A stretch of DNA of 51,714 nt from an uncultured Verrucomicrobiota bacterium. Its GTDB lineage: Bacteria; Verrucomicrobiota; Verrucomicrobiia; Limisphaerales; UBA9464. Positions within the stretch are counted from its first letter, which is position 1. Each line of letters begins with the position of its first letter. Shown here one piece after another: positions 9,904 to 51,714 of this stretch. Under the pieces are notes generated by a model. It was not told where the DNA came from. It saw only the letters and a list, made by a program, of their open reading frames with translations, and did not search any database. The stretch spans positions 1 to 51,714 of the forward strand of contig CAINWP010000060.1 of NCBI GenBank assembly GCA_903854475.1. The letters run 5' to 3'. The translations under genes and the position numbers were made by a program.

Positions 9904-10221
9904 AAGTTTGAAAACCTAGCGGATCGGCAGACGGAATCCAAGAACGCTCGACAGAAGCGATTGGGGCTGAGTTTGGCCCGATGGAAGGCCGTGGAGTGGG
10001 TCTAAACCAGGGGCCCCTCACTCATCCAACGAGGGCCTGGAAACCCGCAGAAATGGGCGAATCGAGCGACACCAAATCTCGGGCTTCATTTACCGAACCT
10101 GAGAGACCTCTGGCCTTAGGTCTCGCGGCAATTGTATCGTTGGCCCAGCCCCCGACTCGGCTCCCATACGAACACCCACCGACTCCGCAACTCCCGACGG
10201 TCCTGCTTACATCGCTGACAC
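9904..10221. other. Divergent intergenic region
   Basis: 318 bases between divergently transcribed genes (9903 minus, 10222 plus). It should hold promoters for both, but I found no convincing -10/-35 pair, operator or structured element by eye. Confidence 0.5.
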
Positions 10222-12987
10222 ATGGTTTTCCAACGCCCCATCCCATGGCTTCGATTCCTTCTGAGAGGCCTGCTGGCTCTCCTTGGGGGCCTTATGCCCT
10301 TCAACCACTTGTGTGCGGGCGATTATGAGGCCGTGCTGAAACCCCTACTGCGGGAACGGTGCGTGTCCTGCCACGGGGCCCTCCAGCAGAAGGCTGGCCT
10401 GCGGCTCGACACGGTGGCGGGAATGCTCCGGGGAGGAAAGCACGGTCCGGTGCTAGTGGTCGGCAAGGCAGAGCAGTCGGTGATGGTTCTACGGACGTCG
10501 AGCGCCGACGCCGACGAGCGCATGCCGCCCGAGCACGAGGGCCAACCCTTCAGCGAGGCTCAGGTTGCGTTGTTGAAGCAGTGGATCACGGACGGAGCGA
10601 GCGCCCCTGCGGGCGAAACCCCCGAAGCGGATCCGAGGGATCATTGGGCATTCCGACCCCGCCAACGCCCGCCCGTACCGACACTGGTTCGCGGCGATTG
10701 GGTGAGGAACCCCATCGATGCCTTCATCTCCCGGAGCCATGAAGCCGCGACTCTGTCCCCACGGCCCGAGGCCCCGCGCCGCCTCCAAATTCGTCGCCTG
10801 TACCTCGACCTCATCGGGTTGCCGCCCAGCGAAGCCGAGATGCGGCAGGCCCTGAGCGACCCGTCCGAAGAGGGCTACGCGCGCACCGTGGATCGACTGC
10901 TCGAAGACCCTCGCCACGGGGAACGCTGGGCCCGTCATTGGATGGACGTGTGGCGCTACAGCGACCCGTGGGGCCTCGGCGACCAACACCGCAACAGCGC
11001 GCGGCACCTGTGGCACTGGCGTGATTGGATCGTCGAGTCGCTCAATGCCGACCTGCCGTATGACGAGATGATCCGCCTCATGCTCGCCGCCGACGAATCG
11101 CACCCCGACGACCTCGAGCAATTGCGGGCCACCGGTTTTCTGGCCCGGAACTACTTTCTCTTCAACCGCAACCAATGGCTCGACGAGACCGTGGAGCATG
11201 TCGGCAAGGCGTTCCTGGGGCTGACGCTCAATTGCGCCAAATGCCACGACCACAAGTACGATCCCCTGCCCCAGACCGACTACTACCGGATGCGGGCTTT
11301 TTTCGAGCCTTATCAAGTGCGGATGGACCTGGTGCCCGGCGAGGCCGATCTGGCCCGCGACGCCATCCCGAGGGCGTATGATCGAAATCCCGAGACGCCG
11401 ACCTACTTGTTTGTCCGGGGTCAGGAGACTCAACCGGACCGCTCGCGGGCGATGGCGCCGGGCGTGCCCGCGCTGCTGGGCGTCACGCTTCCGGACATTC
11501 GGCCCGTCGACCTACCATCCTCAGCCTGGCAGCCCGAGCGGCGGCCCTGGGTACTCGAGACGCAGGTTCGTGTCGCACGGCAGGAACTGGAGACGGTGCG
11601 CGCCGAAGCGGCCCGGGCTTTGGCTAAGGCTGCGGCTTCGACCAACGCCGCGGCTTCGGTGAGTTCGTCCGCAAAAATCGCCGTGGCCGAGGCGCGGTTG
11701 GAAAGCGTCGTCCGGCGCGCCGAGGCCCAGCGCGCCTCGTGGAAGGACGGTCCGACTTCGGCCTCCGCCGCCGAAACAACCGACGTGGCCCGACGCGCCG
11801 CCGTGACGGCCGAGCGCCGCGAGAAGCTCGCCCGCCATCGACTGACCTTGGCCGAGACCGAGCTGAAGCGGGCCACCGCGGAGTCCCGCAAAAGGGACGC
11901 TCTTGCCAAGGAGTTGGCGACCCAAACTGAGCGACTCGCCGCACTCGAAAAAGAGACCGCCCAGGAGCCCGCCTCGTCGGACACCTTTTCATCCCTGTCC
12001 GGGGCGGCCTGGGTCCCCACTCGATTTCTCGACTCAACCAAGGACGACCCTGCCGTGCTGCCTCAGCATCACAGCACCGGACGCCGCACAGCCCTGGCCC
12101 GCTGGATCACCGATCCAGGCAATCCTCTCACCGCACGGGTGGCGGTAAATCACCTGTGGAATCGGCATTGGGGTGCGTCCTTGGCGCCGGCTCTCTTCGA
12201 CCTTGGCCGCAAGGGCGGCACGCCTGAGCACGCCGAACTGATCGACTGGCTGGCCTGCGAATTGGTGGAGCATCGTTGGAGCCTCAAGCACCTCCACCGG
12301 CTCATCGTCACTTCGGCCGCCTACCGCATGGACTCCAGTCTCGCCGGCGCCGGTGCGGAACTAGCGCGCGATCCGGACAATCGCCATTGGTGGCGACGGA
12401 CACCCATCCGCCTCGAATCGCAGGTCATCCGGGATGCACTGCTGGCCCACGCGGGACGTCTCGATACGACGCACGGTGGGCCTACGGTCGGTTCGTCGGA
12501 TCAGGCGCAATCCCGGCGACGCAGCCTGTATTTCCATCACTCCAACAACGACCGGAACCTCTTCCTCACCACCTTCGACGAGGCCCTGGTCAAGGAGTGC
12601 TACCGGCGCGAGACCAGCATCGTGCCCCAACAGGCGCTGGCCCTGCTCAATGGCCGACTCGTTGGCGACTGTGCCCCGGACATCGCGCGGAACTTGGCGG
12701 CCACGTCCCCGAACCCGAGCGACGAGGCCTTCGTGCGCCACGCCTTCGAGCAGCTCTTAGGTTTCGAGCCCGGGCCCGCCGAACTTCAGGCGGCCCTCGA
12801 GGCGCTGCGTGGGCCTTTCGCCGGATTTGCCGGAGAGGCGGGCGGGAAGGTCGGTCCAGCGACGGGCGCATCAGCCGTAAAGGCTCAGAAAACTCAAGCT
12901 CAGGCGCAGCAGGACGCCCCGATGCCAGCCCGAGCCCGACTCGTGTGGTCGCTGGTCAACCATGGTGATTTTGTGACGCTCCGATGA
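10222..12987 (+). CDS. Secreted PSD1-type c-type cytochrome (PSCyt1-DUF1549-DUF1553)
   Basis: 921 residues starting [20 protein letters not shown], a Sec-type signal peptide ending near CAGDYE. The N-terminal PSCyt1 domain carries heme motif C47-V-S-C50-H51. DUF1549 follows (about 150-370: [28 protein letters not shown]) and contains a second C338-A-K-C341-H342. An Ala/Arg/Glu-rich coiled-coil insert spans about 440-590. DUF1553 runs from about 610 to the end ([25 protein letters not shown]). This architecture is abundant in Planctomycetes and Verrucomicrobia and is thought to act in extracytoplasmic redox or polysaccharide degradation, though the reaction is not established. The gene overlaps the DUF1501 gene by four bases (ATGA), forming the standard pair. 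Confidence 0.93.
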
Positions 12988-14513
12988 ACCCTAAGCCAAT
13001 CATCTCGTCCACCCCGTCCATGACTTACGCTCCGTCGATCGCTGCTTCGCACCCACTGTCCCCTGCCGATCGACAGACGCCGTTGCGTCCCCGCCGGGCG
13101 TTCCTCGCCGACCTCGGCATGGGATTCACCGGCCTGGCACTGGGCACGCTCCTCCAGCGAGACGCTAGAGCCGCCAACTCGGCCCTGTGGACGCCCCCCG
13201 ACGGTCGCCCTCATTTCACGCCGAAGGCCAAGAACGTGATCTGGCTTTTCATGAACGGCGGGGTCAGCCACATGGAAAGCTTCGACCCGAAGCCCATGCT
13301 CACGAAGTACGCGGGCAAGACCATCGCCGAAACCCCGTTCGCCTCGGTGCAAGATCCGAAGAAGCTGGCCCTCGAGCGACTGGTGGTGCCCGACGCCAAC
13401 GGCAACCAGCGCAACACGCTCTTTCCGCTCCAGGTGGGATTTCGCAAGCACGGGCAGAGCGGCATGGAAATCAGCGACTGGTTTCCACACATCGCAGCGC
13501 ACGCCGACCGGTTGGCGCTCGTGCGTTCGCTGTGGACTACCGACAGCAACCACGGCGCGCAAACGCAGTTCCACTCGGGCCGTCACCAGAACGACGGCGA
13601 CTTCCCCAACCTCGGAGCCTGGGTGCATTACGGGTTGGGATCGCTCAATGAGAACCTGCCGCAGTTCGTCTCGATGGGCACGCGGGAGTACTGGAACCAG
13701 CGCGACGGCCACTACCTCGGACCCGCCCACGACGCCGTGCCGCTGCGGATCGATCCAGACCGCCCGCTCGACTTCGCCCGGGCCGAGCACCCCTTGGTCG
13801 GAGCAGGCCAACGCGGCGGCATCGACCTCATCCGCCGGCTCAACGAACTGCGGGGCATCGAGTACCCCGACGATCCAGCCATGGCCGCGCGGATCGCCTC
13901 CTACGAACTGGCCTACCGCATGCAATCGTCGGTGCCGGAGGTGGTCGATTTCTCCAAGGAAACGCCAGAGACGCAGGCGCTCTACGGCCTGGACCAACCG
14001 CACTGCCGCGAGTTTGGCCGTCAACTGCTCGCTGCGCGCCGGATGGTCGAGCGGGGCGTGCGGTTCATCCAAATTCAGCACGGCGGCGGCGGCGCTGGAG
14101 CCTGGGATGCGCACTCGGGGCTCAAGGCCAACCACGAAGGTCTGGCGCGGGCCGTAGACCAACCCATCGGCGGCCTGCTCGCCGACTTGCATCGCCGAGG
14201 CCTGCTCGACGAGACGCTGGTGGTCTTCGCCACCGAGTTCGGCCGCACCCCCGGCACTCAGGGTTCCGACGGCCGCGACCACCACATCTTCGGCTTCAGC
14301 GTCTGGATGGCCGGCGGCGGGCTGCGACAAGGCATCGTGCACGGAGCCACCGACGAGATCGGCTTCCACGCCACCGAAAATCGGCACTACGTCACCGACA
14401 TCCACGCCACCATCCTGCACCAACTCGGTCTCGACTCCCGCCGCCTCGAAATCCCCGGCCGCAAGCGCCTCGACATCGACCACGGCCAACCCATCCGCGA
14501 ACTCATCGGGTGA
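12984..14513 (+). CDS. DUF1501 sulfatase-like exported protein
   Basis: 509 residues. The start at 12984 overlaps the cytochrome stop. A second Met at residue 13 is possible. Residues 36-56 ([20 protein letters not shown]) form an RR-leader compatible with Tat export. The remainder is the DUF1501 alkaline-phosphatase/sulfatase-superfamily fold: [21 protein letters not shown] near the start, a [11 protein letters not shown] segment, and near the C-terminus [21 protein letters not shown] and [14 protein letters not shown]. The fold suggests a hydrolase acting on an extracellular substrate. The pairing with a PSD1 cytochrome implies the two act together outside the cytoplasm, but the substrate is unknown. 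Confidence 0.92.
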
Positions 14514-16138: not shown

Positions 16139-17443
16139 TCACGCCTTCGGGAACGTGAGGCGATGGGTCTTCTGGATCTTGTCACTCCACTCATCGGGGA
16201 CTCCCGCCTCGGCGGCGAACTCCGGCCAGCGGTTCACCGCAGTCTGAACTTCGTCCAGGATCGCCGCAGCGCGCCCGCGCTTCATGAGCGCCGAGCGGGC
16301 GCACTGCACGAAGTCTTCCCGCGTAAAACCATCCCGCTTCCCGTTCAAGGTCATCTGGTGGGTACCGGTCCACGCGCCCGCAGGATTGAAGCTGTAGGTC
16401 ACATCAAAAGCCGGTGCGAGAAACCACTCGCCGAGCGGGTTCATCAGGAATGCGATGTTCTTCAAATGGTCGTCCTGATTCCGCGCGACGACGTTGAACA
16501 CCATCCGGCGGAATTGTTCCTCCACGGCCGCCATCGGCAGCTGGAGCCGACGGATCGCCAGCAGCGCCTGCTCGTAGCCGTAGGCTCCCGCCTGGTTAAA
16601 ATCGAAATGGGCCAGGGCGCACAGCGACTGCAGGTGCAGTTTTTCCCCGCCCGCCAGCCGGTCGAAACGGCGGGTCATGAAATGCCGCCGCCCATTCTCT
16701 TCCAGCAGCCGGCACTCGCTCATGGTGATGCCCGCCGCTTCCGCCATCCGGTGATAGGCAAACTCCACGGCCCCGTAACCCTTCGGGTCGTCCCGTTCCT
16801 TGTCTCGGTTCTCATCCACACCGTCGAATTTCAGCAGCCAGTACTCGAAGCCATCGCCCGCCGCGATCTGACCTGATCGCACCTCGTGGGTTTGAGGGTT
16901 CCACGCGATCACCGCCTTGGCCCGCGCGCCACCGGCCGACGTTCCCACAGTCAGGATGTCGCGCAGGGCCTTCGCTTTTCCCGCCGCATGAAGATGCCCC
17001 TGCAACTGGCCGCGATGTGTTAGCACCTCGCCCGCCAGCCGCACCAGCGCATCCACTTCCAGCTTCGAGGCCTTGCGCGGCTTCGGCCCCAGCACCGGCG
17101 CAAACTCCAGCGCTCCCATGCCGCGCGTGCCGGTGTAGCAAAGTCGCTCCACCGCGCTGAAGCTCTCCGGCGAACGCCCCTGCGTGGCAAGCCATGCGTC
17201 GATCAGCGCATTGCCGAACTTGTCTGGCAGCGAATCTGCGAGCAACCCCGGCAGGCCGTGGAAGGTATTCCGTGGCAGCTCGGGAAACTGATGCACTTGC
17301 CCGCTCAGCGGCATCACTAATGGCGACAGTTGGATCCCGCTGCCGGCGAACTCGGGATCATACTCGAAGGCCGCGACATTGCGCCCTTCCTCGAGCGAGA
17401 CCGCGCCGATCGTCCGACCCCAGAGCTGCACCTTCGCGATCAT
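16139..17443 (-). CDS. hipA: HipA-family serine/threonine kinase toxin
   Basis: 434 residues, typical of full-length HipA. Residues 1-110 form the HipA N-terminal domain (VQLWGRTIGAVSLEEGR, GLPGLLADSLPDKFGN). The glycine-rich P-loop GTSAGGARAK is at 167-176. The catalytic loop NQDDHLKN is at 322-329, with D324 as likely catalytic base, and the Mg-binding DFG-like Asp is D347 in APAFDVTYS. HipA kinases phosphorylate cytoplasmic targets (glutamyl-tRNA synthetase in E. coli) to arrest translation, neutralised by HipB. All key residues are present, so the toxin looks active. The ATG overlaps the hipB stop (17440-17443), the classical hipBA order. Confidence 0.94.
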   Translation of the reverse strand: MIAKVQLWGRTIGAVSLEEGRNVAAFEYDPEFAGSGIQLSPLVMPLSGQVHQFPELPRNTFHGLPGLLADSLPDKFGNALIDAWLATQGRSPESFSAVERLCYTGTRGMGALEFAPVLGPKPRKASKLEVDALVRLAGEVLTHRGQLQGHLHAAGKAKALRDILTVGTSAGGARAKAVIAWNPQTHEVRSGQIAAGDGFEYWLLKFDGVDENRDKERDDPKGYGAVEFAYHRMAEAAGITMSECRLLEENGRRHFMTRRFDRLAGGEKLHLQSLCALAHFDFNQAGAYGYEQALLAIRRLQLPMAAVEEQFRRMVFNVVARNQDDHLKNIAFLMNPLGEWFLAPAFDVTYSFNPAGAWTGTHQMTLNGKRDGFTREDFVQCARSALMKRGRAAAILDEVQTAVNRWPEFAAEAGVPDEWSDKIQKTHRLTFPKA

Positions 17444-31464: not shown

Positions 31465-31576
31465 CGGGCCGCATTGCCCTCCAGCGGGTGGCCAAAGGCA
31501 AGCCCTCGTCAAGAGGACTGCGCTGAATTTGGCCATTGATCCCAGTAGAGAATTCAGGGATTGGACGCGAGTGCGG

Positions 31577-33982
31577 ATGAGACGCTTTCACTGGATATCC
31601 CTAATCGTGGCGGGCCTGACCGTGGCCGCATGTGCGGGGCGGCGGGGTGGGAACGAGGGTTCCTTGGCCCACTCCACCCCCTCGGACCGATCCGGGGACA
31701 CTATCTACCGCGAAGACTGTGCCCGTTGCCATGGGCCTCAGGGCGAGGGAGTCGCCGGCCAATACGACGAGACCTTGTACGGCGAACAGTCCATGACGTC
31801 GCTGGCCCGGTACATCCACCGGACGATGCCCGACGATCGCAAGGAAAAGACTTCCGAAGCCGATTCGCAACGGGTCGCTGAATTCATCCACGGAGCCTTT
31901 TATTCGCCCCAGGCCCGGGCCCGAAATACCCCCGCACGGATCGAGTTCAGTCGCCTCACTCAGCGGCGCTACCGCGAATCGGTCGCCGACCTCCTGAGTG
32001 GTTTCGCCGAGACTCGTCAAACCGAACGATCCGGAGGGCTTCAGGCCGAATATTTTCAGTCGAAGGGAATGAACAAAAAGGACAAGTCGGCCCTTCAGCG
32101 GATCGATCCCATCGTCCGCTTCGACTTCGGGACCAACTCTCCGACCCCGGACATTACGGCGGACCAATTTTCCATCGCTTGGAGCGGATCGGTGCTGGCG
32201 CCGGAGTCGGGCGAATACCAGTTCCGGGTGACGACCCCCAATGGCGCACGGCTTTACGTCAACACGGACCTGGCGGCGGGCGACAGCAATCGACGGGATG
32301 ATTCAGACGCCAAGCGCGAAGTGGCTCTGGTGGATTTGTGGGTCAGTTCGGGTGGCGTGGAACGTCAAGGGTCAGGGGCTTTGTACTTGCTGGGCGGACG
32401 CAGCTACCCGCTGCGCTTAGATTACTTCAAGTTCAAGGAGAAGACGGCCGCTGTGAGGCTCGAGTGGAAGCCACCGCATGGTCCCTGGACGGGGATTCCC
32501 TCGTCGGTCCTGTCCCCGGACGCATCCTCCGCAACCCCGATCATCGGCACTGCGTTTCCGGCCGAGGACTCCAGCCTAGGCTACGAGCGCGGGCATTCGA
32601 TTTCTAAGGAATGGTGGCGGACGATCACCCGAGCCGGGACCGAGACCTCAGAACTAGTGGCTGAACGAATCCCTCGCCTGGCCGCCCTCCCCACCGACCT
32701 GACCAACCGCACCGAACTCAGCCGACGGATGCAGGACTTCTGCGCCCAATTGGCTGAGCGAGCGTTTCGACGCCCCCTCGATACGGAGCTGCGTCACCGC
32801 ACGGTGGATCTCTGGTTTCAGCCCGGTATCGCTTTGGAAGACTCAGTGAAGCGATCGGTGCTGGCAGTCATGACTTCCCCGCGCTTCCTCTATCCGGAGT
32901 CGGAGGGACGTCAAGACAGCCATGCGGCCGCGGCACGTCTGGCTCTGGTGCTGTGGGATTCGCTCCCAGATGAAACGCTCCGGAAGGCTGCAGACCGCGG
33001 TGAAGTCGTCACTCCGGAACAAATTCGTGCCCAGGCCCGACGCATGATCCAAAACCCACGGGCTAAGGCCAAGCTGCGGGGGTTCTTTGACCATTGGCTC
33101 GATGCGGAGGCGGCCGATGACATTGCCAAGGATCCCAAATCGTATCCAGGCTTCGATGCCGAGATGGTGCAAGATTTACGAACCTCCCTGAACCACTTCG
33201 TAGATTCGGTGGTGTGGAGCGACGCTTCGGATTACCGACAATTGTTGTTGTCCGACGAGCTCTACCTTAACGCCCCATTGCGCCGGTATTATGGGGTCGA
33301 AAGTTTGGGGAGCACTCAGCGTGGGGCGGGCGGAGGTACCACAAACGCCCTTGACGACGCCTTTGTCCCCGTGCGTTTCAATCCAGAACAACGGGCTGGA
33401 GTGCTCACACATCCGTTCCTCCTCTCGGCCCATTCCTACTACCGGTCTTCCTCACCGATCCACCGAGGCGTTTTCCTGACTCGCAAGGTGCTAGGCCGTT
33501 TTCTCAAACCGCCGCCGATGGCCATTGAGTTCATGGACGACCGATTTGATCCGTCGCTGACCATGCGCGAGAAGGTCACTCAACTGACTGAAAAACCGCA
33601 ATGCATGGCCTGCCACGCGACCATCAACCCGCTGGGCTTCAGTCTGGAACAATTCGACGCGGCCGGGCGGTTCCGCTTGGAGGACACTCGGAAACCCGTC
33701 AACGCCACCTCCGAGTACCAGACGGCCGACGGCAAGACCCTGACCCTGCGGGGCCCGCGAGACCTTGCTCGCCATGCGTCCGAAAGCCCGGATGCCCGCC
33801 GCGGGTTCGTCCGACAACTTTTCCAGCACACAGTCCAACAGGCGCCGGACGCCTATGGGGTGGGGTCACTCCAGAAACTCGATTTGGCCTTCGAACACTC
33901 CGGCTGCAATGTCCGCCAACTGCTAGTAGAGATCGCTGTCCACACCGCCACCTTGGATCCGAAGAACCCGTCACGGAAATGA
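31577..33982 (+). CDS. Cytochrome c lipoprotein with PA14 and DUF1592/DUF1588/DUF1585 domains
   Basis: 801 residues. I chose the ATG at 31577 ([20 protein letters not shown]), which gives a lipoprotein signal with lipobox VAAC and C19 as the lipidated residue. An N-terminal c-type cytochrome has C48-A-R-C51-H52. A PA14 domain spans about 165-315 ([23 protein letters not shown]), often carbohydrate-binding. The DUF1592/1588/1585 block follows, with a second heme-type motif C676-M-A-C679-H680 in [20 protein letters not shown]. The family is common in Verrucomicrobia and Planctomycetes and acts outside the cytoplasm, reaction unknown. It overlaps the DUF1552 gene by four bases. Confidence 0.91.
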
Positions 33983-35304
33983 AGCCCTCCCTCACCTCCT
34001 CACCGCGTCGCCGCTTCCTCCGAGACCTAGGCCTCTCCGCCGCGGTCTTGCCGTTTTTGGGCGGATTGCCCTCGCTTCAGGCTGCCCCGCGCAAACGGTC
34101 TGCCCCGCGCATCGTCTTCGTCTTCACTCCCAACGGCACCGTGCCCAATGAGTTCTGGCCGGAAACCGCGGGCACCGAGTTCCAGCTCAAATCCATCTTG
34201 GAGCCGCTGGCTGCCTACCGGAACCAAATGCTCATTCTCAAAGGATTGTGCAACCGGGTCCGCGGCGATGGCGACGGGCACATGCGCGGCATGAGCTGCC
34301 TGCTCACGGGCATTGAACTGCTCCCCGGCAATATTCAGGGAGGCTCCGACACGCCGGCGGGCTGGGCCAGCGGGCCGTCCATCGACCAAGAATTAAAAAC
34401 TTTCTTGCAGGGGCGACCAGAAACGCGGACCCGCTTTGGATCCTTGGAGTTGGGAGTGGGTGTGCCTCATCGGGCCGACCCCTGGACCCGTTGGACCTAT
34501 GCCGCTTCCAATCAGCCGGTCGCTCCGCTATCCGATCCCTACGAAGTGTTTGAGAAACTTTACGGGCAGGTCAAAGACCGGGAGAATTTGGGCAGCGTCC
34601 TCGACCAGGTTCGGTCAGATCTGAAGCAAGTCTCCCGACGGTTAGGGCGCGAGGAGCGGGCCTTACTCGACCAGAACGCCACCCTCGTCCGCGAGATGGA
34701 ACGAGAGATCGCCGAAGCGGGACGGCAAAAATTGCGAATGGCCGCACCGGTCTTGGAACCAGGCATCGGCAACGAAAACGATGCCATTCCCCAGTTGTCT
34801 CGCATGCAGGCCGACCTGCTGGTCAATGCCTTCGCCAACGACATGACCCGAGTGGCCTCCCTGCAATACACCAACTCGGTCGGGCAAGCCCGCATGCGCT
34901 GGCTGGGCATCGATGACGGCCATCACTCGCTCTCGCACGATCCCGATCTCAACACCGGCTCACAGGAGAAACTGGTGAAGATCAACCGCTGGTTCGCCGG
35001 CGAAATCGCCACGCTGGCCCGGAAACTCGCGGCAACGCCCGATCCGGATGGCAACGGATTCCTCCTCGACCACACCACAATTCTTTGGACCAACGAGCTG
35101 GGTAAGGGCAACAGCCACTCCCATGACAATATTCCCTTTGTGCTGGTGGGCGGTGGACTGGGGTTTGGCACCGGCCTTTGTCTGCACCTCGATAAGACGC
35201 CCCACAACCGCCTTTGGTTGTCGATTGCCCAGGGCTTTGGACATAATCTGACAACTTTCGGTAATCCGACGCTCTGCAGCGCTGGGCCGCTGCCGCTCGG
35301 CTGA
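33979..35304 (+). CDS. DUF1552 exported protein with RR leader
   Basis: 441 residues. The ATG at 33979 overlaps the DUF1592 stop (ATGA); a longer frame from 33601 is antisense-like inside the cytochrome gene and rejected. The leader [20 protein letters not shown] (residues 10-29) fits Tat export. The rest is the DUF1552 fold related to the DUF1501/sulfatase-like group: [30 protein letters not shown], and the C-terminal [20 protein letters not shown]. It is the usual partner of DUF1592 cytochromes. Together they mirror the PSD1-DUF1501 pair at 10-14.5 kb. The substrate is unknown. Confidence 0.92.
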
Positions 35305-45933: not shown

Positions 45934-48900
45934 ATGAAACAGTTCCTTAGATTCCTCCAGCCGATGTGGGCCTTGTTGGCGCTCACCGTCGGACTTCACG
46001 CCGATCCGCTCCGCGTCTTCATCCGCGGCGGCGTCAAAACCCACGGCCCCAACCAGCACGATCATCCGCGATTCCTGGGTGAATGGGCCAAGCTCCTCAC
46101 CGAGCGGGGAATCACCGCCAGTGGCGCTATGGAATTTCCGACGGCCGCCCAGTTGGAGGCGACCGATGTGCTGGTGATTTACGCGGCCGACGGCATGAAA
46201 ATCATCGGCGACGAGCGAGGGCGCTTCGAGCACTTCCTGTCCCGCGGCGGTGGCGTGGTGGTGCTTCACGACGGCGTGGTCAGCGGTGATCAGCACGAGT
46301 GGTGCAAGAAGATCATCGGTGGCGCCTGGCGTTGGGATGGCGAGAAAAAGACGCAGTGGCACGAGGGCAATGTCGGGGTCTATTTCGTCAATCCGGAGCA
46401 TCCGATTGTTAAGGGCGTGTCCAACTTCGACTGGAAGGACGAGGTCTACAACCGCCTCGATATGGCCGAGGACGTCAACGTGTTGGCCCAGAGTTTTGTC
46501 GATGTCTTCAACATTTGGCCCCAGCTGTGGACTTATGAGAAGACCTTGCCTGAGGCCAAGGCACCCTACCGGGCCTTTGTCAGCATACCCGGCCACGAGT
46601 ACGACTCGTTCAATACCCCCCATTACCGGGCCATTTTGCTGCGCGGCATCGCCTGGGCTGGAAAGCGCGCCAACGCCGACGAGTTCTGCAAGCCCGAGGA
46701 ATTGGCTTCGCTCAAGTACCCGGCCGGGGGCCCGAAGCCCGCCGCTGAGGCGCTCAAGACCTTCCAGACTCATCCGGAGTTCAAGGTGTCCCTCACGGCC
46801 GACGAGAACGTGGCCGAGAAGATCATGTCCATGGACTGGGACGAGAGGGGTCGCCTGTGGGTGGTTGAGACTCCCGAGTACCCGGGAGGTCGCGACGTGA
46901 ACAAGAATGACTTCAAGGCCTATTGGAACCGAGCCCAAGACCCCAAGACCTTCCCCGTTGGCGGGAAGCAAGTTCGCAAGCCGCTGGATCGCATCTCGAT
47001 TCTGGAAGACACCAACGGCGATGGCGTGGCCGACAAGCGCACCCTCTTTGCTGACGGTCTGGAACTGCCCACCTCGCTGGTGTTCTGGAAAGACGGCGTC
47101 ATCGTGGCTCAGGCCCCGGACATCTTGTGGATTCGGGACACCAATGGCGACGGTCGGGCGGACAAGGTTGAAACCCTCTATACCGGCTGGGGCACCTTCG
47201 ACACCCATGCGGTCATTAGCAATTTCCGCTGGGGCATGGATGGCTGGATTTACGGATCGGTGGGCTACACCCGCGGACGCGTGAAGTCTGGCGACGGATC
47301 CAAAGACTTCGGCGACATCGCCGCGGGTATCTACCGCTTCAAACCCGATGGCTCCGCGGTCGAGCAAATCGCCGCCGGCGGTTGCAATACTTGGGGCTGC
47401 GAGATCGCGCCCGACAACGAAATCCTCTTCACGACGGCCACCTGCGGCGAGCCCATCTGCCACGTGGTCATTCCCGAAAAGATTTTGGCCCGCGGACAGG
47501 TGGGCGGCATGAAGTCGTTCTTCAATGTCATTGAGGAAAACAAGATCTACCCAGCCTTCGATGAGAAGCGTCAGCCGTACGTGCAAATCGACTGGGTGGG
47601 CGCTTGGACCGCGGCTGCGGGCGCGACGATTTATGACGGCGGCGCTTGGCCGGCCAAGTGGGCGGCCAATGAGCGGTACTCTTTCTTTATGAGCGAGGCC
47701 ACACGCCAGCTCTTCCATCATGAGTTTCTGGATCCGAAGGGCGCGACCTACCAGGGCCGCAAGGAAGACGGCCGCAAGCAGACCGAGTTCTTGGCGAGCA
47801 CGGATTATTGGTTCCGCCCCATTCACAGCCGCGTAGGCCCAGACGGGGCCATCTACGTGGTTGATCTCTATAATCAAATCGCCGTTCACAACGACACCCG
47901 GGGTCCGGGTCACGGAGCCCGCAATGCGGCTGCCCGCCCGGATCGGGATCACCACTTCACCCGCATTTGGCGCATCCAGCACAAGGATGCCAAGACGCTG
48001 CCGACCGCGAAATTCGACCGCAACGACGCGGAGACCCTGGTCACCGCCCTGAATCATCCGAATGGTTGGGTTCGTTCCACGGCCAACCGCCTCTTGGTTG
48101 AGCAGCCCGCCGTGTTGGAATCGGCATTGCCCGGTTTGGGTCAGCTCATCGGCGATACCTCGGCCCCGGCTGAATCCCGCATCCAAGCCTTGTGGCTTTA
48201 CCGCGTGGCCGCCTCCAACGGCCCCGTGCCCTGGGACGATGCGGCCGCCGCTTCGGTCATGAACGATTCGTCCCCCTGGGTTCGCAAGAATGCCCTTCGG
48301 GTAGCTACCGAGTTGGTGGCCAACCCAGCCAATCTCCGCTCCGAAGATTCCGATCCGCTGAAGACCACGGAGAAAGCCGTTATCGAGCGCCTGAGCGATC
48401 CCGATGGCCGCGTACGCATTAACGCCCTGATGGCGGCGGGTTCTCTGCCGGCGTCGCGTGCCTTGGCCGATGCCGTGGTGGCCGCCTGGCCCAACCTCAA
48501 GGATCGTTGGCTGGAGTCCGCCGCGGTTGGTGCCGCCGACAAGGATCCGCTGCTTTTCCTCGAGGCGGTCTTTGCTGCCCAGGATCCGGCCTTCGTCGTT
48601 GGATATGTGCCGCACCTGGCCCGGATGGTTGCCAATCGTCGTGATGCCGCGCTGGCCGGACGCATGGTGCAATTGCTCGCACGCCAACCGGCCGCCACCG
48701 ATGGCCTTAAGGCGGCCGCCCTCGAAGCGTTGTCGGCCGCGCTCGACGCCCGCCTGCAGCCCGAACTCGATGCGGCCAATTTGGGATCCTTGAAGTCGCT
48801 ACTGGCTTCGGGTCGCACCGCTGGTTCGGTGTTGCCCTTGGTGGCCCGCTGGAAGGCGGCTTCGGCCTTGGCTGCCGAACTCAAGCCCGCCATTCAGGCC

Positions 48901-51081
48901 GCCTCGGCCCAGATCGGGGACGCCGCGTTGTCGGACGCCTCCCGCGGCCAGATCGCCGCCAATTTAATTGGTGTCCGTAACATCGATCCGTCGGTGATCC
49001 CGGCCGTCGCTTCTCTGGTGACCCCGGCCGTGAGTCCGGCGCTCCAGAAGTCCTTGATCGAGGCCCTGGGCTCTGCCCCCGAAGGTGGGATGGCTCTGGT
49101 CCAACGATTCACCCAGTTGCCCACCGGTCAGTTGGAGACGGCCTTTGCTCAGGTACTCAAGCGGGCCGACTCATCCGCCGCCTTCATCGAGGCGCTCGCT
49201 ACTCACAAGATCGACGTGGTGCTGCTCGGACCTGCCCGCTTGCACCGTCTCCGTACCCACGGTGACGCCAAAATCGCGGCCCGCGCCACCCAGGTTATCG
49301 ACGACCTGAAGGGGCCGGAGGCCAAGGAGAAGGACGCCCTCATCGCCAAGTTGCAGCCGGAAGTGGAGAAGCCGGGCGATGTGGCCAACGGTAAGAAGGT
49401 CTACACCGCCAACTGCGCCGGCTGCCACATTTACAAGGGTGAGGGCCGCAATTTAGCTCCCAACCTCAACGGCATGGGGGCCCACGGTGCGGCCGACTTA
49501 CTCATTCACATCGTGGACCCGAACCGCGTGGTCGAGCCGAACTTCATCAGCGTTAGCATCGAGATCAAGTCGGGCGATCAGTTCGATGGCATCATCGAGC
49601 GTGAGAATGCCTCGGAAGTCGTCCTGCGCGATGCGTCGTCCGACCACACTTTGCGTGTCTCTGACATCGCCAGCCGCAAGTCGACGGGGCGCTCGCTCAT
49701 GCCTGAGGGCTTCGATGCCTTGGGCGCGGCGGCTCTGCGGGATTTGCTGGCCTACATGACCGTGGATGACAATCGTTTCCGCATCATTGATTTGGGTGGG
49801 GCCTTCACGGCCAACAGCGGTCGTGGCCTCTACATCACGCCGGAGCAGGAGGACGACACCGTCACCTTCCGCAGCTACGGCCTCAAGCGTGTCGAAGACA
49901 TTCCTTTCGACGTGATCAGCCCTGAGAAAGCCGTCGCCAACGTGGTCGTTCTCAAGGGGGGAGCGTCGGACTCCTGGTCGCGCAAGAGTCTGCCTAAGCG
50001 GGTTGAGGTGAAGGTGGGCGTGGCGGCCTCCAAGCTGCACATCCTGGGCGGCGTGGCCGGCTGGGGATATCCCGCGGTGGGCGAGAAGGTCAATGCCCTG
50101 AAAATGACGGCTGTTTTTGAAGGCGGCGCGACGCAGGAGATCCTCCTGAAGAACGGCGTAGAAATCGCCGACTACCGCGGTCGTACGGATGTGACGGGTT
50201 CCAAGGGATTGCCGAGTTGGACCAAGGGGCCCGGCCAAATCCGCTGGCTGACCAAGAACATTACCAAGCCCGGTGTGATCCAGAAATTGGTGCTGGAGAG
50301 CTACGACAATGAAGTGGCGCCGACCCTCTTCGCCATCACGGCCGAGTTGGGTGCGCCGGCGGGACCTGAGCAGGCGCAGGCCAATCCGGTGGCGGCACCG
50401 CTGAAGTGGGGCAATGGGCTCAAGACACTGCTCATTGGCGGTGGTTCTTCGCACGACTATAACCGCTGGTTCAACCTGGCGGACGTGGCGATGCTCAATG
50501 CTTCCGGGCACATTTCGGCCAACTACCGCGAGCCTCAGGACGTGAGCGTCGAGGCTGTGACATCCGCGGACATCCTGCTCATCAGCGCCAACAAGGCCTT
50601 TCCCGATGCGGCGGTGCGCGAGGCCATCGCTGCCCATGCTGCGGCCGGCAAGGGACTGGTGCTGTTGCACCCGGGCCTGTGGTACAACTGGGCCAACTGG
50701 CCCGCTTACAACCGTGAGTTGGCCGGCGGTGGATCCCGCGGCCATGACGCTTACGGGGAGTTCGAAGTCACCGTCACCGGCGTGAAGCATCCCTTGCTTC
50801 AGGGTGTTCCGGAGCACTTTAAGCTGAGCGACGAGCTCTACTACTACGAGGCCGACCCAGCTGGAACGCCCATTCAGGTGCTGGCCACCGCCCACTCTAA
50901 GTCCAAGAACAAGGACTTCCCGCAGGTCTTTGTGGTGAACCATCCCAAGGCCCGCATCGCCGGCATCACGTTGGGTCACGACGCCATCGCTCACGGGCAT
51001 ATCGCCTATCAGCAGTTGCTCAAGAATGCGGTGCTGTGGACGGCTCACAAGGAGGCTTGGATCACGGCCAACGCGAAGTAA
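45934..51081 (+). CDS. Giant secreted ThuA-dehydrogenase-HEAT-cytochrome c-ThuA protein
   Basis: 1715 residues from the ATG at 45934, with a signal peptide (MKQFLRFLQPMWALLALTVG, ending LHADP). Order of domains: ThuA-like 25-245 (YAADGMKIIGDERGRFEHFL, LHDGVVSGDQHEWCKKIIGG); a PVC-type beta-propeller dehydrogenase about 285-690 (DWDERGRLWVVETPEYPGG, DTNGDGVADKRTLFADGLEL); HEAT-like helical repeats about 700-1090; the PVC heme-binding cytochrome domain with C1161-A-G-C1164-H1165 and NGMGAHGAADLLIHI; a beta-rich segment about 1300-1490; and a second ThuA-like domain from residue 1496 (LKTLLIGGGSSHDYNRWFN) to near 1711. ThuA folds are glutamine-amidotransferase-like and are associated with sugar metabolism. 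ThuA at both ends is unusual. A strong terminator follows. Confidence 0.9.
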   Translation: MKQFLRFLQPMWALLALTVGLHADPLRVFIRGGVKTHGPNQHDHPRFLGEWAKLLTERGITASGAMEFPTAAQLEATDVLVIYAADGMKIIGDERGRFEHFLSRGGGVVVLHDGVVSGDQHEWCKKIIGGAWRWDGEKKTQWHEGNVGVYFVNPEHPIVKGVSNFDWKDEVYNRLDMAEDVNVLAQSFVDVFNIWPQLWTYEKTLPEAKAPYRAFVSIPGHEYDSFNTPHYRAILLRGIAWAGKRANADEFCKPEELASLKYPAGGPKPAAEALKTFQTHPEFKVSLTADENVAEKIMSMDWDERGRLWVVETPEYPGGRDVNKNDFKAYWNRAQDPKTFPVGGKQVRKPLDRISILEDTNGDGVADKRTLFADGLELPTSLVFWKDGVIVAQAPDILWIRDTNGDGRADKVETLYTGWGTFDTHAVISNFRWGMDGWIYGSVGYTRGRVKSGDGSKDFGDIAAGIYRFKPDGSAVEQIAAGGCNTWGCEIAPDNEILFTTATCGEPICHVVIPEKILARGQVGGMKSFFNVIEENKIYPAFDEKRQPYVQIDWVGAWTAAAGATIYDGGAWPAKWAANERYSFFMSEATRQLFHHEFLDPKGATYQGRKEDGRKQTEFLASTDYWFRPIHSRVGPDGAIYVVDLYNQIAVHNDTRGPGHGARNAAARPDRDHHFTRIWRIQHKDAKTLPTAKFDRNDAETLVTALNHPNGWVRSTANRLLVEQPAVLESALPGLGQLIGDTSAPAESRIQALWLYRVAASNGPVPWDDAAAASVMNDSSPWVRKNALRVATELVANPANLRSEDSDPLKTTEKAVIERLSDPDGRVRINALMAAGSLPASRALADAVVAAWPNLKDRWLESAAVGAADKDPLLFLEAVFAAQDPAFVVGYVPHLARMVANRRDAALAGRMVQLLARQPAATDGLKAAALEALSAALDARLQPELDAANLGSLKSLLASGRTAGSVLPLVARWKAASALAAELKPAIQAASAQIGDAALSDASRGQIAANLIGVRNIDPSVIPAVASLVTPAVSPALQKSLIEALGSAPEGGMALVQRFTQLPTGQLETAFAQVLKRADSSAAFIEALATHKIDVVLLGPARLHRLRTHGDAKIAARATQVIDDLKGPEAKEKDALIAKLQPEVEKPGDVANGKKVYTANCAGCHIYKGEGRNLAPNLNGMGAHGAADLLIHIVDPNRVVEPNFISVSIEIKSGDQFDGIIERENASEVVLRDASSDHTLRVSDIASRKSTGRSLMPEGFDALGAAALRDLLAYMTVDDNRFRIIDLGGAFTANSGRGLYITPEQEDDTVTFRSYGLKRVEDIPFDVISPEKAVANVVVLKGGASDSWSRKSLPKRVEVKVGVAASKLHILGGVAGWGYPAVGEKVNALKMTAVFEGGATQEILLKNGVEIADYRGRTDVTGSKGLPSWTKGPGQIRWLTKNITKPGVIQKLVLESYDNEVAPTLFAITAELGAPAGPEQAQANPVAAPLKWGNGLKTLLIGGGSSHDYNRWFNLADVAMLNASGHISANYREPQDVSVEAVTSADILLISANKAFPDAAVREAIAAHAAAGKGLVLLHPGLWYNWANWPAYNRELAGGGSRGHDAYGEFEVTVTGVKHPLLQGVPEHFKLSDELYYYEADPAGTPIQVLATAHSKSKNKDFPQVFVVNHPKARIAGITLGHDAIAHGHIAYQQLLKNAVLWTAHKEAWITANAK

Positions 51082-51101: not shown

Positions 51102-51146
51102 CAGCGCGGCGGGTGTGCCAATCACCTCGCCGCGCTGTTTGTTTTT
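51102..51146 (+). terminator. Strong Rho-independent terminator
   Basis: CAGCGCGGCG (51102-51111) pairs perfectly with CGCCGCGCTG (51128-51137) and is followed by TTTGTTTTT (51138-51146). It lies 20 bases after the stop of the 1715-residue protein and ends that transcript. Confidence 0.95.
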
Positions 51147-51222
51147 CGGCGACCGGTTGAAAGAGTCCGCGCGTCGGCTCACAGTGTGCAGACAACGGTG
51201 GGTGCCGTTGATGGGTCCCTCG

Positions 51223-51714
51223 ATGAACCACCGCATTCTTGCACCGAACGGTTGGAGAACCTTTTGGACCATGGTCCTGATCGGGTGGGCCATGGCTCTC
51301 CGAGCGGGGGCTGTCACTCTGGATTTGGACTTTCGGCCCACCTGGGATGCCAAACCGCTGGAGCTCGAGGCGCTGCGCCATGAGAGCGGTGCCGGTGAGT
51401 TGTTGTCGGTGACCCGCCTGAGCGCTCTGTTATCGGGAGCCGCGCTGGAGACCGTCGACGGAAAATGGGTGGAAGTGACTCCGGCCCATGCGTGGATCGA
51501 TCTGGCCTCGGGTCGTTTGCGTTGGACCTTGAATCCGGTTCCGCCGGGATACTACCGAGCGCTGCGTTTTTGGATTGGGCCGGACTCGGTCGAGAACCAC
51601 GCCGATCCAGCCAAACGGTTGCCCGACGATCCCTTGTCGCCCGCTCTCAATGGCCTGCATTGGGACTGGCAGGGCGGGTACATCTTCATGGCGCTGGAGG
51701 GGCGCTATCGTTCG
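51223..51714 (+). CDS. MbnP-like exported protein (5' part, cut by window end)
   Basis: 164 residues of an incomplete gene. The ATG at 51223 begins MNHRILAPNGWRTFWTMVLI, a signal peptide ending near LRAGA; an in-frame ATG at 51211 is an alternative. After it, VTLDLDFRPTWDAKPLELEA, RLSALLSG and LSPALNGLHWDWQGGYIFMA are the recognisable core of the MbnP family. MbnP proteins bind copper, with an oxidised Trp (kynurenine) made by the diheme partner MbnH. The NGLHWDWQGGY block is the part that carries the conserved Trp. The partner, if any, must lie beyond the window. No cysteine or His cluster can be judged from the partial sequence. Confidence 0.8.
   Translation, partial: MNHRILAPNGWRTFWTMVLIGWAMALRAGAVTLDLDFRPTWDAKPLELEALRHESGAGELLSVTRLSALLSGAALETVDGKWVEVTPAHAWIDLASGRLRWTLNPVPPGYYRALRFWIGPDSVENHADPAKRLPDDPLSPALNGLHWDWQGGYIFMALEGRYRS

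Follow-up and report, generated by a model that had tools for sequence, protein, structure and literature searches.

The gene at positions 45934-51081 (+) of the window, a 51,714-nucleotide stretch of contig CAINWP010000060.1 from an uncultured Verrucomicrobiota bacterium (GCA_903854475.1), encodes a 1715-amino acid (aa) protein in which two ThuA domains of unlike type enclose a redox core. The protein is tentatively interpreted, with close to an even chance of the interpretation being right, as a secreted machine for 3-ketoglycoside chemistry contained in one polypeptide. An oxidative route is favoured on the basis of the fold of its propeller domain, its heme motif, the fusion of related proteins to the 3-keto-disaccharide hydrolase domain PF06439, and the linkage of the family to UPF0261 and PF09370 proteins.

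The gene is a single open reading frame (ORF) with an ATG start, and its product comprises, from the N- to the C-terminus, a putative signal peptide, a first ThuA domain (ThuA1), DUF7133, HEAT repeats, a cytochrome c, a beta-sandwich and a second ThuA domain (ThuA2). Export is probable, given that residues 1-23 (45934-46002), as judged by eye, form a hydrophobic N-terminus ending in LHA-DP. Pfam placed ThuA (PF06283) on two separate stretches of the protein, and piece-wise scanning gave 92.9 bits for ThuA1 (residues 24-244; 46003-46665) and 78.1 bits for ThuA2 (residues 1496-1712; 50419-51069) against a cut-off of 33.4, while a profile search of the genome contigs located ThuA matches at 46126-46659 and 50548-51042. 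The first-pass annotation, which had placed ThuA-like domains at both termini of one ORF of this length, was thus correct in both domains and coordinates, as Pfam found two ThuA domains rather than one. Its assignment of the core to a known family of the Planctomycetota-Verrucomicrobiota-Chlamydiota (PVC) group also held, with two NCBIfam models scoring above their curated cut-offs. TIGR02604 (residues 347-684; 227.3 bits, cut-off 122.2) coincides with DUF7133 (PF23500; residues 271-685, 46744-47988; E 6.8e-117), and TIGR02603 (residues 1148-1276, 49375-49761; 89.2 bits, cut-off 68.15) with the c-type cytochrome domain, where Pfam recognised Cytochrom_C at residues 1150-1185. Between them lies a HEAT or helical-repeat region (residues 691-1140; 48004-49353), of variable length among relatives, in which the HEAT match (approximately residues 775-845) was weak, falling below the Pfam cut-off in the whole protein, with PF02985 slightly above it in the piece scan. 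A beta-sandwich linker domain (residues 1284-1490; 49783-50403), additional to the domains noted in the first-pass annotation, had no Pfam match at E 1 and was distinguished by its predicted fold. Five other records (L067-L070 and L090) preserve the reading frame from residue 1 to 1715, with 93-98% identity in the best segment, and the mean predicted local distance difference test (pLDDT) score exceeds 92 for both folded parts (residues 24-698 and 1140-1715), on which grounds a chance ORF is excluded.

Structure prediction, as proposed with the first-pass annotation, gave a propeller with the fold of sugar dehydrogenases, two ThuA folds, a cytochrome and the extra beta-sandwich. The model of residues 24-698 (65-row alignment) reached a pLDDT of 92.8 and a predicted template modelling (pTM) score of 0.91, and this pTM value across two domains suggests that ThuA1 is fixed in place on the propeller. 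When Foldseek's 1000 best PDB chains were re-aligned to the model, ranks 1-16 were all occupied by sugar or glucose dehydrogenases or AA12 entries with a fold of the pyrroloquinoline quinone (PQQ) type (Z 24.4-27.8), including 3a9g (Z 27.8; 3.2 Å, 288 residues aligned), the AA12 protein 6h7t (Z 26.7) and the soluble glucose dehydrogenase (sGDH) 1qbi (Z 25.5). These were followed by 4e5v, matching ThuA1 (Z 22.7), and all remaining proteins, other propellers included, scored at most 22.4. The predicted propeller fold is therefore of the sGDH/AA12 type, a shared fold that alone shows no function, and comparison of the propeller piece with the PDB by sequence gave no meaningful match. Seven propeller residues (H425, N485, H652, N653, D654, R656 and H660) are invariant in 65/65 aligned rows, among which H425 and N485 could correspond to the catalytic His and PQQ/Ca ligands of PQQ-dependent sugar dehydrogenases. 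The model of residues 1140-1715 combined a high pLDDT (92.3) with a pTM of 0.58, which is consistent with flexibly joined C-terminal domains. Within it, ThuA2 resembled 4e5v (Z 24.3; 2.4 Å, 216 aligned), the cytochrome resembled Kustd1711 (7zs0; Z 17.2) and the linker was best matched by AziU3/U2 (8gs1; Z 16.0, 4.3 Å, 170 aligned), and a literature search for AziU3 gave nothing bearing on the linker. A CxxCH motif occupies residues 1161-1165, and C1161, C1164, H1165 and M1256 are invariant in 64/64 rows, with the cytochrome motif likewise kept in 20/20 rows of a smaller alignment. M1256, located in the sequence SLMPEG, is a candidate axial ligand.

The two ThuA domains differ in their conserved sites. 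Across 79 sequences of ThuA2, H1507 is present in 79, H1579 in 78, H1604, D1633 and E1634 in 77, and H1682 and H1687 in 76; all misses in this set are gaps, and one row of a separate 64-row alignment has Ser at 1604. At the position of H1604, ThuA1 carries Lys (58), Gln (13) or Arg (3) in 74 of its 79 sequences and so lacks the ThuA2-type site, and the position of H1687 is occupied by Phe in 72/79. ThuA1 nevertheless remains a ThuA domain by profile score despite its altered site, and His, His, Asp-Glu and Gly-His positions are kept in most members of both domains. Further His residues have been lost from ThuA1 in six aligned rows (L041-L044, L046 and L047). Among the columns conserved in 90% of sequences for ThuA2, or in 85% for ThuA1, none has Cys as its common residue, so that the catalytic Cys of class I glutamine amidotransferases, whose Cys-His-Glu triad is named in PMC7229062, has no counterpart at these columns. 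H1687 is shared with the separately encoded ThuA2 proteins of L138 and L170 and was found in 0/17 other stand-alone or N-terminal ThuAs. Searched against the PDB by sequence, ThuA2 matched 4e5v (E 2.4e-7), and ThuA1 gave only a weak best match to 4jqs (E 0.19).

Phylogenetic trees (FastTree local support) also part the two domains. In the first tree, from which the fragmentary rows L081_T2 and L117_T1 were left out, 75/78 ThuA1 rows formed their own clade (0.93), and all 78 were united only together with two ThuAs from the window's own genome (L008 and L010; 0.98). In a second, thinned tree, comprising every other row of both domains and those of the window, all 39 ThuA1 rows formed one clade (0.999). 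The separately encoded proteins of L138 and L170 joined ThuA2 (0.87 and 0.96), with further ThuAs placed between the ThuA1 and ThuA2 groups. On account of this separation and the differing conserved sites, the chain most probably combines two ThuA lineages that were recruited separately and are under unlike constraint. A recent internal duplication of one ThuA was considered and rejected, since the trees place other ThuAs between the two.

A survey of the phylum, in which 387 genomes were searched with the whole protein, showed a sharp step in the best score per genome, from at least 540 bits to at most 246, and the family was delimited as the 22 genomes above this step, the window's own among them. 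The 21 other family genomes yielded 22 loci (L041-L062), of which 21 contain uninterrupted genes, and both ThuAs are present in 19 of these 21. The two exceptions occur in the same genome (G243), with the gene of L045 stopping after the linker and that of L050 lacking both the linker and ThuA2, while in L053 (G351) a contig end truncates the gene. At the level of genomes, both ThuAs are encoded in one ORF in 20/22, the others being G351, with its cut gene, and G243, without a fused ThuA2. L053 and L169, a contig that opens with a ThuA2 fragment, may be parts of one G351 gene. The beta-sandwich linker was not found in L052, L058, L061 and L062.

A scan of named genomes gave at least 546 relatives among the 589 matches listed, and within the best 80 of these both ThuAs were found in 55/60 uninterrupted and 5/20 cut genes. 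The five uninterrupted exceptions are L095, L099, L130, L138 and L092, the last of which stops 247 bp short of a contig end. The L138 gene terminates at a stop codon after the linker; 233 bp downstream begins a gene for a 240-aa ThuA2 protein, which has a hydrophobic leader of its own and is 51% identical to the ThuA2 of the window. The record titles of the best 80 are mostly those of Verrucomicrobia or Planctomycetota, and the isolate names point to lakes, ponds and groundwater; the titles of L100, L111, L080 and L085 (Klebsiella pneumoniae, Deltaproteobacteria, Akkermansia muciniphila) look wrong for this PVC family. Genes resembling those of microcompartment shells (identified by eye) lie approximately 4-8 kb upstream of the family gene in L092 (523-4673). 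On sequence comparison, the two-ThuA form is a conserved and widespread subfamily of the named core family. The first-pass annotation had proposed a survey of the architecture, which proved frequent, but no description of it was listed in literature searches on ThuA, on the core family, where one paper was obtained, on a protein without ThuA (PMC5342196), and on 3-keto hydrolases in PVC bacteria, where general PVC papers were listed; this absence is weak evidence, as only open-licence texts were covered.

The recurrent neighbours of the family genes are a PF09370 TIM-barrel protein, UPF0261, a cupin and an AraC-type regulator. Initial neighbourhood clustering included antisense shadow ORFs and left out L081, L086, L120, L122, L124 and L145; the counts given here derive from direct BLAST, scored as presence within 3 kb with one query per partner, and any AraC-type regulator is consequently counted as AraC. 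They cover 78 loci in which one ORF encodes both ThuAs, from which L043, one of the 19 complete phylum-survey genes, is absent due to a ThuA1 match misplaced on ThuA2, and 55 of the loci are flanked by 3 kb or more on each side. Among these 55, the TIM-barrel protein occurs in 22 (18 on the same strand), the cupin in 21 (18), AraC in 16 (4) and UPF0261 in 13 (9), with at least one of the TIM-barrel protein, cupin and UPF0261 in 29. Linkage of the two-ThuA family to UPF0261 is tighter at the level of the genome than by gene nearness. UPF0261 is encoded in 30/387 phylum genomes, comprising 22/22 family genomes and 8/365 others (Fisher p 1.4e-29). When counted by genus, the only correction for kinship applied, it is found in 13/13 family genera versus 5/185 others (Fisher p 1.1e-16). 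A further 31 genomes, all with both ThuAs, were chosen from the 80 named loci, and consisted of twelve Planctomycetota (eleven by title, plus L139, its genome being among those sampled from the phylum) and nineteen others, mostly without partners nearby. UPF0261 was found in 30 of the 31, the miss being the metagenome-assembled genome of L068. All twelve of the chosen Planctomycetota genomes encode UPF0261. Of 372 genomes sampled from this phylum 83 do so, and these 83 include at least five family genomes. UPF0261 and PF09370 genes are adjacent at many of the retrieved loci. Five of the six annotated plasmid records inspected show the same pairing, and the matched gene in the sixth is immediately followed by one for PF09370. 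The two bacterial proteins are related to Tm-1, a virus-resistance protein of plants, and each corresponds to one half of a Tm-1-like protein (PMC5028733); the excerpt of that source makes no mention of a link to ThuA or DUF7133 cytochromes. In L170 a glycerate-kinase-like gene (10111-11223; identified by eye) opens a row of cupin, PF09370, ThuA2 and DUF7133 genes, which hints at glycerate as an endpoint.

Proteins related to the core were further examined in 26 stretches around UPF0261 genes outside the two-ThuA loci (L147-L172), with Pfam applied to their DUF7133 proteins. Such a protein is present in 13/26, including those of seven of the eight non-family genomes with UPF0261. PF06439 occurs in, or adjoins, 10/13 of these DUF7133-cytochrome proteins near UPF0261/PF09370; it is part of the same chain in seven (L151, L157, L158, L164, L165, L166 and L169) and encoded by a directly adjoining gene in three (L148, L153 and L156). 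The order ThuA-PF06439-DUF7133-cytochrome is seen in L164 and L165, while in L148 the PF06439 gene lies directly downstream of a ThuA-DUF7133-cytochrome gene, and in L170 a ThuA2-type gene lies directly upstream of one. Giant ThuA-PF06439-DUF7133-LamG-cytochrome proteins are encoded beside UPF0261 and PF09370 at L164 (10605-15818) and L165 (3209-8341), with HEAT_2 in L165 only. Within the two-ThuA loci a PF06439 gene was found only four times (L049, L054, L097 and L136), at distances of 1.1-4.6 kb and twice on the opposite strand. ThuA and PF06439 also occur together in the genome of the window, where a single 531-aa frame on contig C80 (L181) matches both families and adjacent genes of the same strand encode them on contig C15 (L182).

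ThuA acts in 3-keto-trehalose metabolism in rhizobia. In the proposed mechanism, the propeller would bind a glycoside and oxidise a ring hydroxyl, most likely that at C3, to a ketone, and the electrons would be taken up by the c-type heme in the TIGR02603 domain and handed on to the respiratory chain. ThuA1, probably rigid on the propeller and with its altered site, would bind or position the sugar, while ThuA2, probably tethered flexibly and with a complete site, would cleave the activated glycosidic bond or isomerise the product, thereby taking the part played by the PF06439 hydrolase in related proteins. The released keto-sugar would then enter the cell and be passed to UPF0261, the PF09370 TIM-barrel protein and the cupin. 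The more specific proposal that ThuA2 is an unrecognised 3-ketoglycoside-cleaving enzyme which replaces PF06439, with UPF0261/PF09370 as the cytosolic keto-sugar route, is somewhat unlikely.

Several observations weigh against the ketoglycoside reading. PF06439 was detected neither in the window protein (E 0.1) nor in its six pieces (E 1), and three of the thirteen DUF7133 proteins near UPF0261 (L149, L154, which has a ThuA domain, and L170) are without it. The window's genome contains 32 DUF7133 matches, several of which are pieces of one gene, and 18 PF06439 matches, and the nearness of both to UPF0261 is given as raw counts without a shuffled control; given these numbers, the PF06439 fusions outweigh the neighbours as evidence. 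None of UPF0261, PF09370 and cupin lies within 3 kb in 26/55 loci, and in the window's genome UPF0261 and PF09370 have one match each, on two other contigs. PqqE scored above its cut-off in 6/387 genomes and in 0/22 family genomes, so that the hosts would need to scavenge PQQ or rely on a different cofactor; a corresponding search for PqqC matched no genome, controls included, and is void. An Arg-Asn pair contacts PQQ in known enzymes (PMC6881789, in part), and by eye the Arg of this pair has no evident counterpart before N485. Alignment of the DUF7133 profile with the window's own GSDH-family protein by hhalign covered 21 columns only and was uninformative. PQQ was considered as an established cofactor and is not claimed, in view of the absence of PqqE above the cut-off in family genomes and of the uninformative profile alignment. 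Finally, the TIGR02604-HEAT-cytochrome protein Lac161_ORF7, expressed in Escherichia coli, liberated glucose from lactose, and the assay reagents listed in the excerpted report include no electron acceptor (PMC5342196); this may point to plain hydrolysis.

One rival reading assigns the propeller a hydrolytic or binding function rather than that of a dehydrogenase, and the heme a part in electron transfer that has nothing to do with the sugar, which would make the protein a secreted glycosidase. Purified Lac161_ORF7, with the same described core domains, hydrolysed lactose with a Km of 1.8 mM (PMC5342196, in part), and the lack of PqqE above the cut-off in family genomes fits this explanation. 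The closest propeller folds are, however, those of sugar dehydrogenases, the cytochrome motif is kept in every row of both alignments, and Lac161_ORF7 can be likened to the window protein by its described domains only, its reported architecture being without ThuA; a glycosidase is considered unlikely. Alternatively, both ThuAs may be non-catalytic carbohydrate-binding modules (CBMs) that keep a polysaccharide close to the propeller. Precedents exist in the levan-binding domain of SGBPlev, which has a ThuA-like fold (PMC7618045, in part), and the N-terminal domain of Agd3, also of ThuA-like fold and tested as a CBM (PMC7229062, in part). ThuA1 mostly lacks two His of ThuA2, and the linker is likewise a beta-sandwich, which agrees with such a role. 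Against it stand the five His and the Asp-Glu of ThuA2, retained in 76-79 of 79 sequences, and the lineage-specific H1687. Glycan-binding surfaces usually vary more than this. Agd3, furthermore, is described as differing from the ThuA-like protein with which it was compared in lacking its conserved surface residues (PMC7229062, in part). Two binding modules are thus a rather doubtful explanation, albeit one with a real share of the probability. The explanation put forward in the first-pass annotation, that two equivalent ThuA catalysts jointly act on one sugar around the redox core, is very improbable. Both domains are real and most members keep the His, His, Asp-Glu and Gly-His positions in each, but they belong to separate lineages and differ at two conserved positions, ThuA1 of L041-L044, L046 and L047 has lost further His residues, and ThuA2 can be a separate gene. 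What stands of that interpretation is a sugar-related redox role with a c-type heme, to which the fold matches, the invariant CxxCH and Met and the PF06439 links point; the notion of the ThuAs as like partners is not supported.

PVC-type heme-binding CxxCH proteins have the same DUF7133, HEAT and TIGR02603 cytochrome in the same order, to which the window protein adds the terminal ThuAs, the beta-sandwich and its own gene partners. Lac161_ORF7 (AGW45552), which is verrucomicrobial, likewise combines TIGR02604, HEAT_2 and a CxxCH cytochrome and acts on a glycoside, but is reported as a beta-galactosidase without ThuA, and the excerpt of its description reports no redox step (PMC5342196). The propeller fold is shared with sGDH, Asd and the AA12 pyranose dehydrogenase (Z 24.4-27.8), and in CcPDH sugar oxidation is combined with an attached cytochrome in a manner similar to that proposed here (PMC6881789, in part). 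The window propeller is, however, only 12-18% identical to PQQ sugar dehydrogenases and occurs in hosts without PqqE above the cut-off. In Caulobacter, LacABC oxidises lactose to 3'-ketolactose and a DUF1080 (PF06439) hydrolase is proposed to act next, which parallels the proposed periplasmic oxidation to a 3-keto-disaccharide followed by cleavage; there the dehydrogenase and the proposed hydrolase are separate proteins, whereas in the window protein ThuA2 would take the place of PF06439 (PMC9007349, in part). ThuA-like proteins (PF06283; 4e5v, 4jqs and 1t0b) have the fold and the His and Asp-Glu positions in common with the window protein, which differs in joining two diverged lineages to a redox core in one chain. 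The new part of the finding, and the one likely to draw specialist interest, is the linkage to UPF0261/PF09370 and PF06439, rather than the double ThuA as such.

Elsewhere in the window, an MbnP-like protein (PF20243) is encoded directly downstream of the two-ThuA gene (51115-51714, +, running off the end) and is also found beside the gene in L067, L068, L069 and L090. A second protein of sugar-dehydrogenase type belongs to the GSDH family (PF07995; 38422-39921, -), while further PVC cytochrome systems (PSCyt/PSD with DUF1501, and PA14-PSD4-PSCyt3 with DUF1552) lie at 10222-14510 and 31529-35301 (+). A HipA-like protein with HipA C-terminal and N-terminal coupling domains is encoded at 16142-17443 (-), and scans of the window with Rfam and for tRNAs gave no matches.

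Many large cytochrome proteins without known function are encoded by the Verrucomicrobiota and Planctomycetota, and the two-ThuA family offers a testable chemistry for them. A study of freshwater Verrucomicrobia from 2017 described the functions of PSCyt, another cytochrome family, as not known, with their genes seeming to mirror glycoside hydrolase genes and the mechanisms of the two likely to differ (PMC5615132, in part). The family also provides a metabolic context for the UPF0261/PF09370 pair. Should ThuA2 indeed be a 3-ketoglycoside-cleaving enzyme that replaces PF06439, the module would represent an oxidative alternative to glycoside hydrolases in these two phyla.

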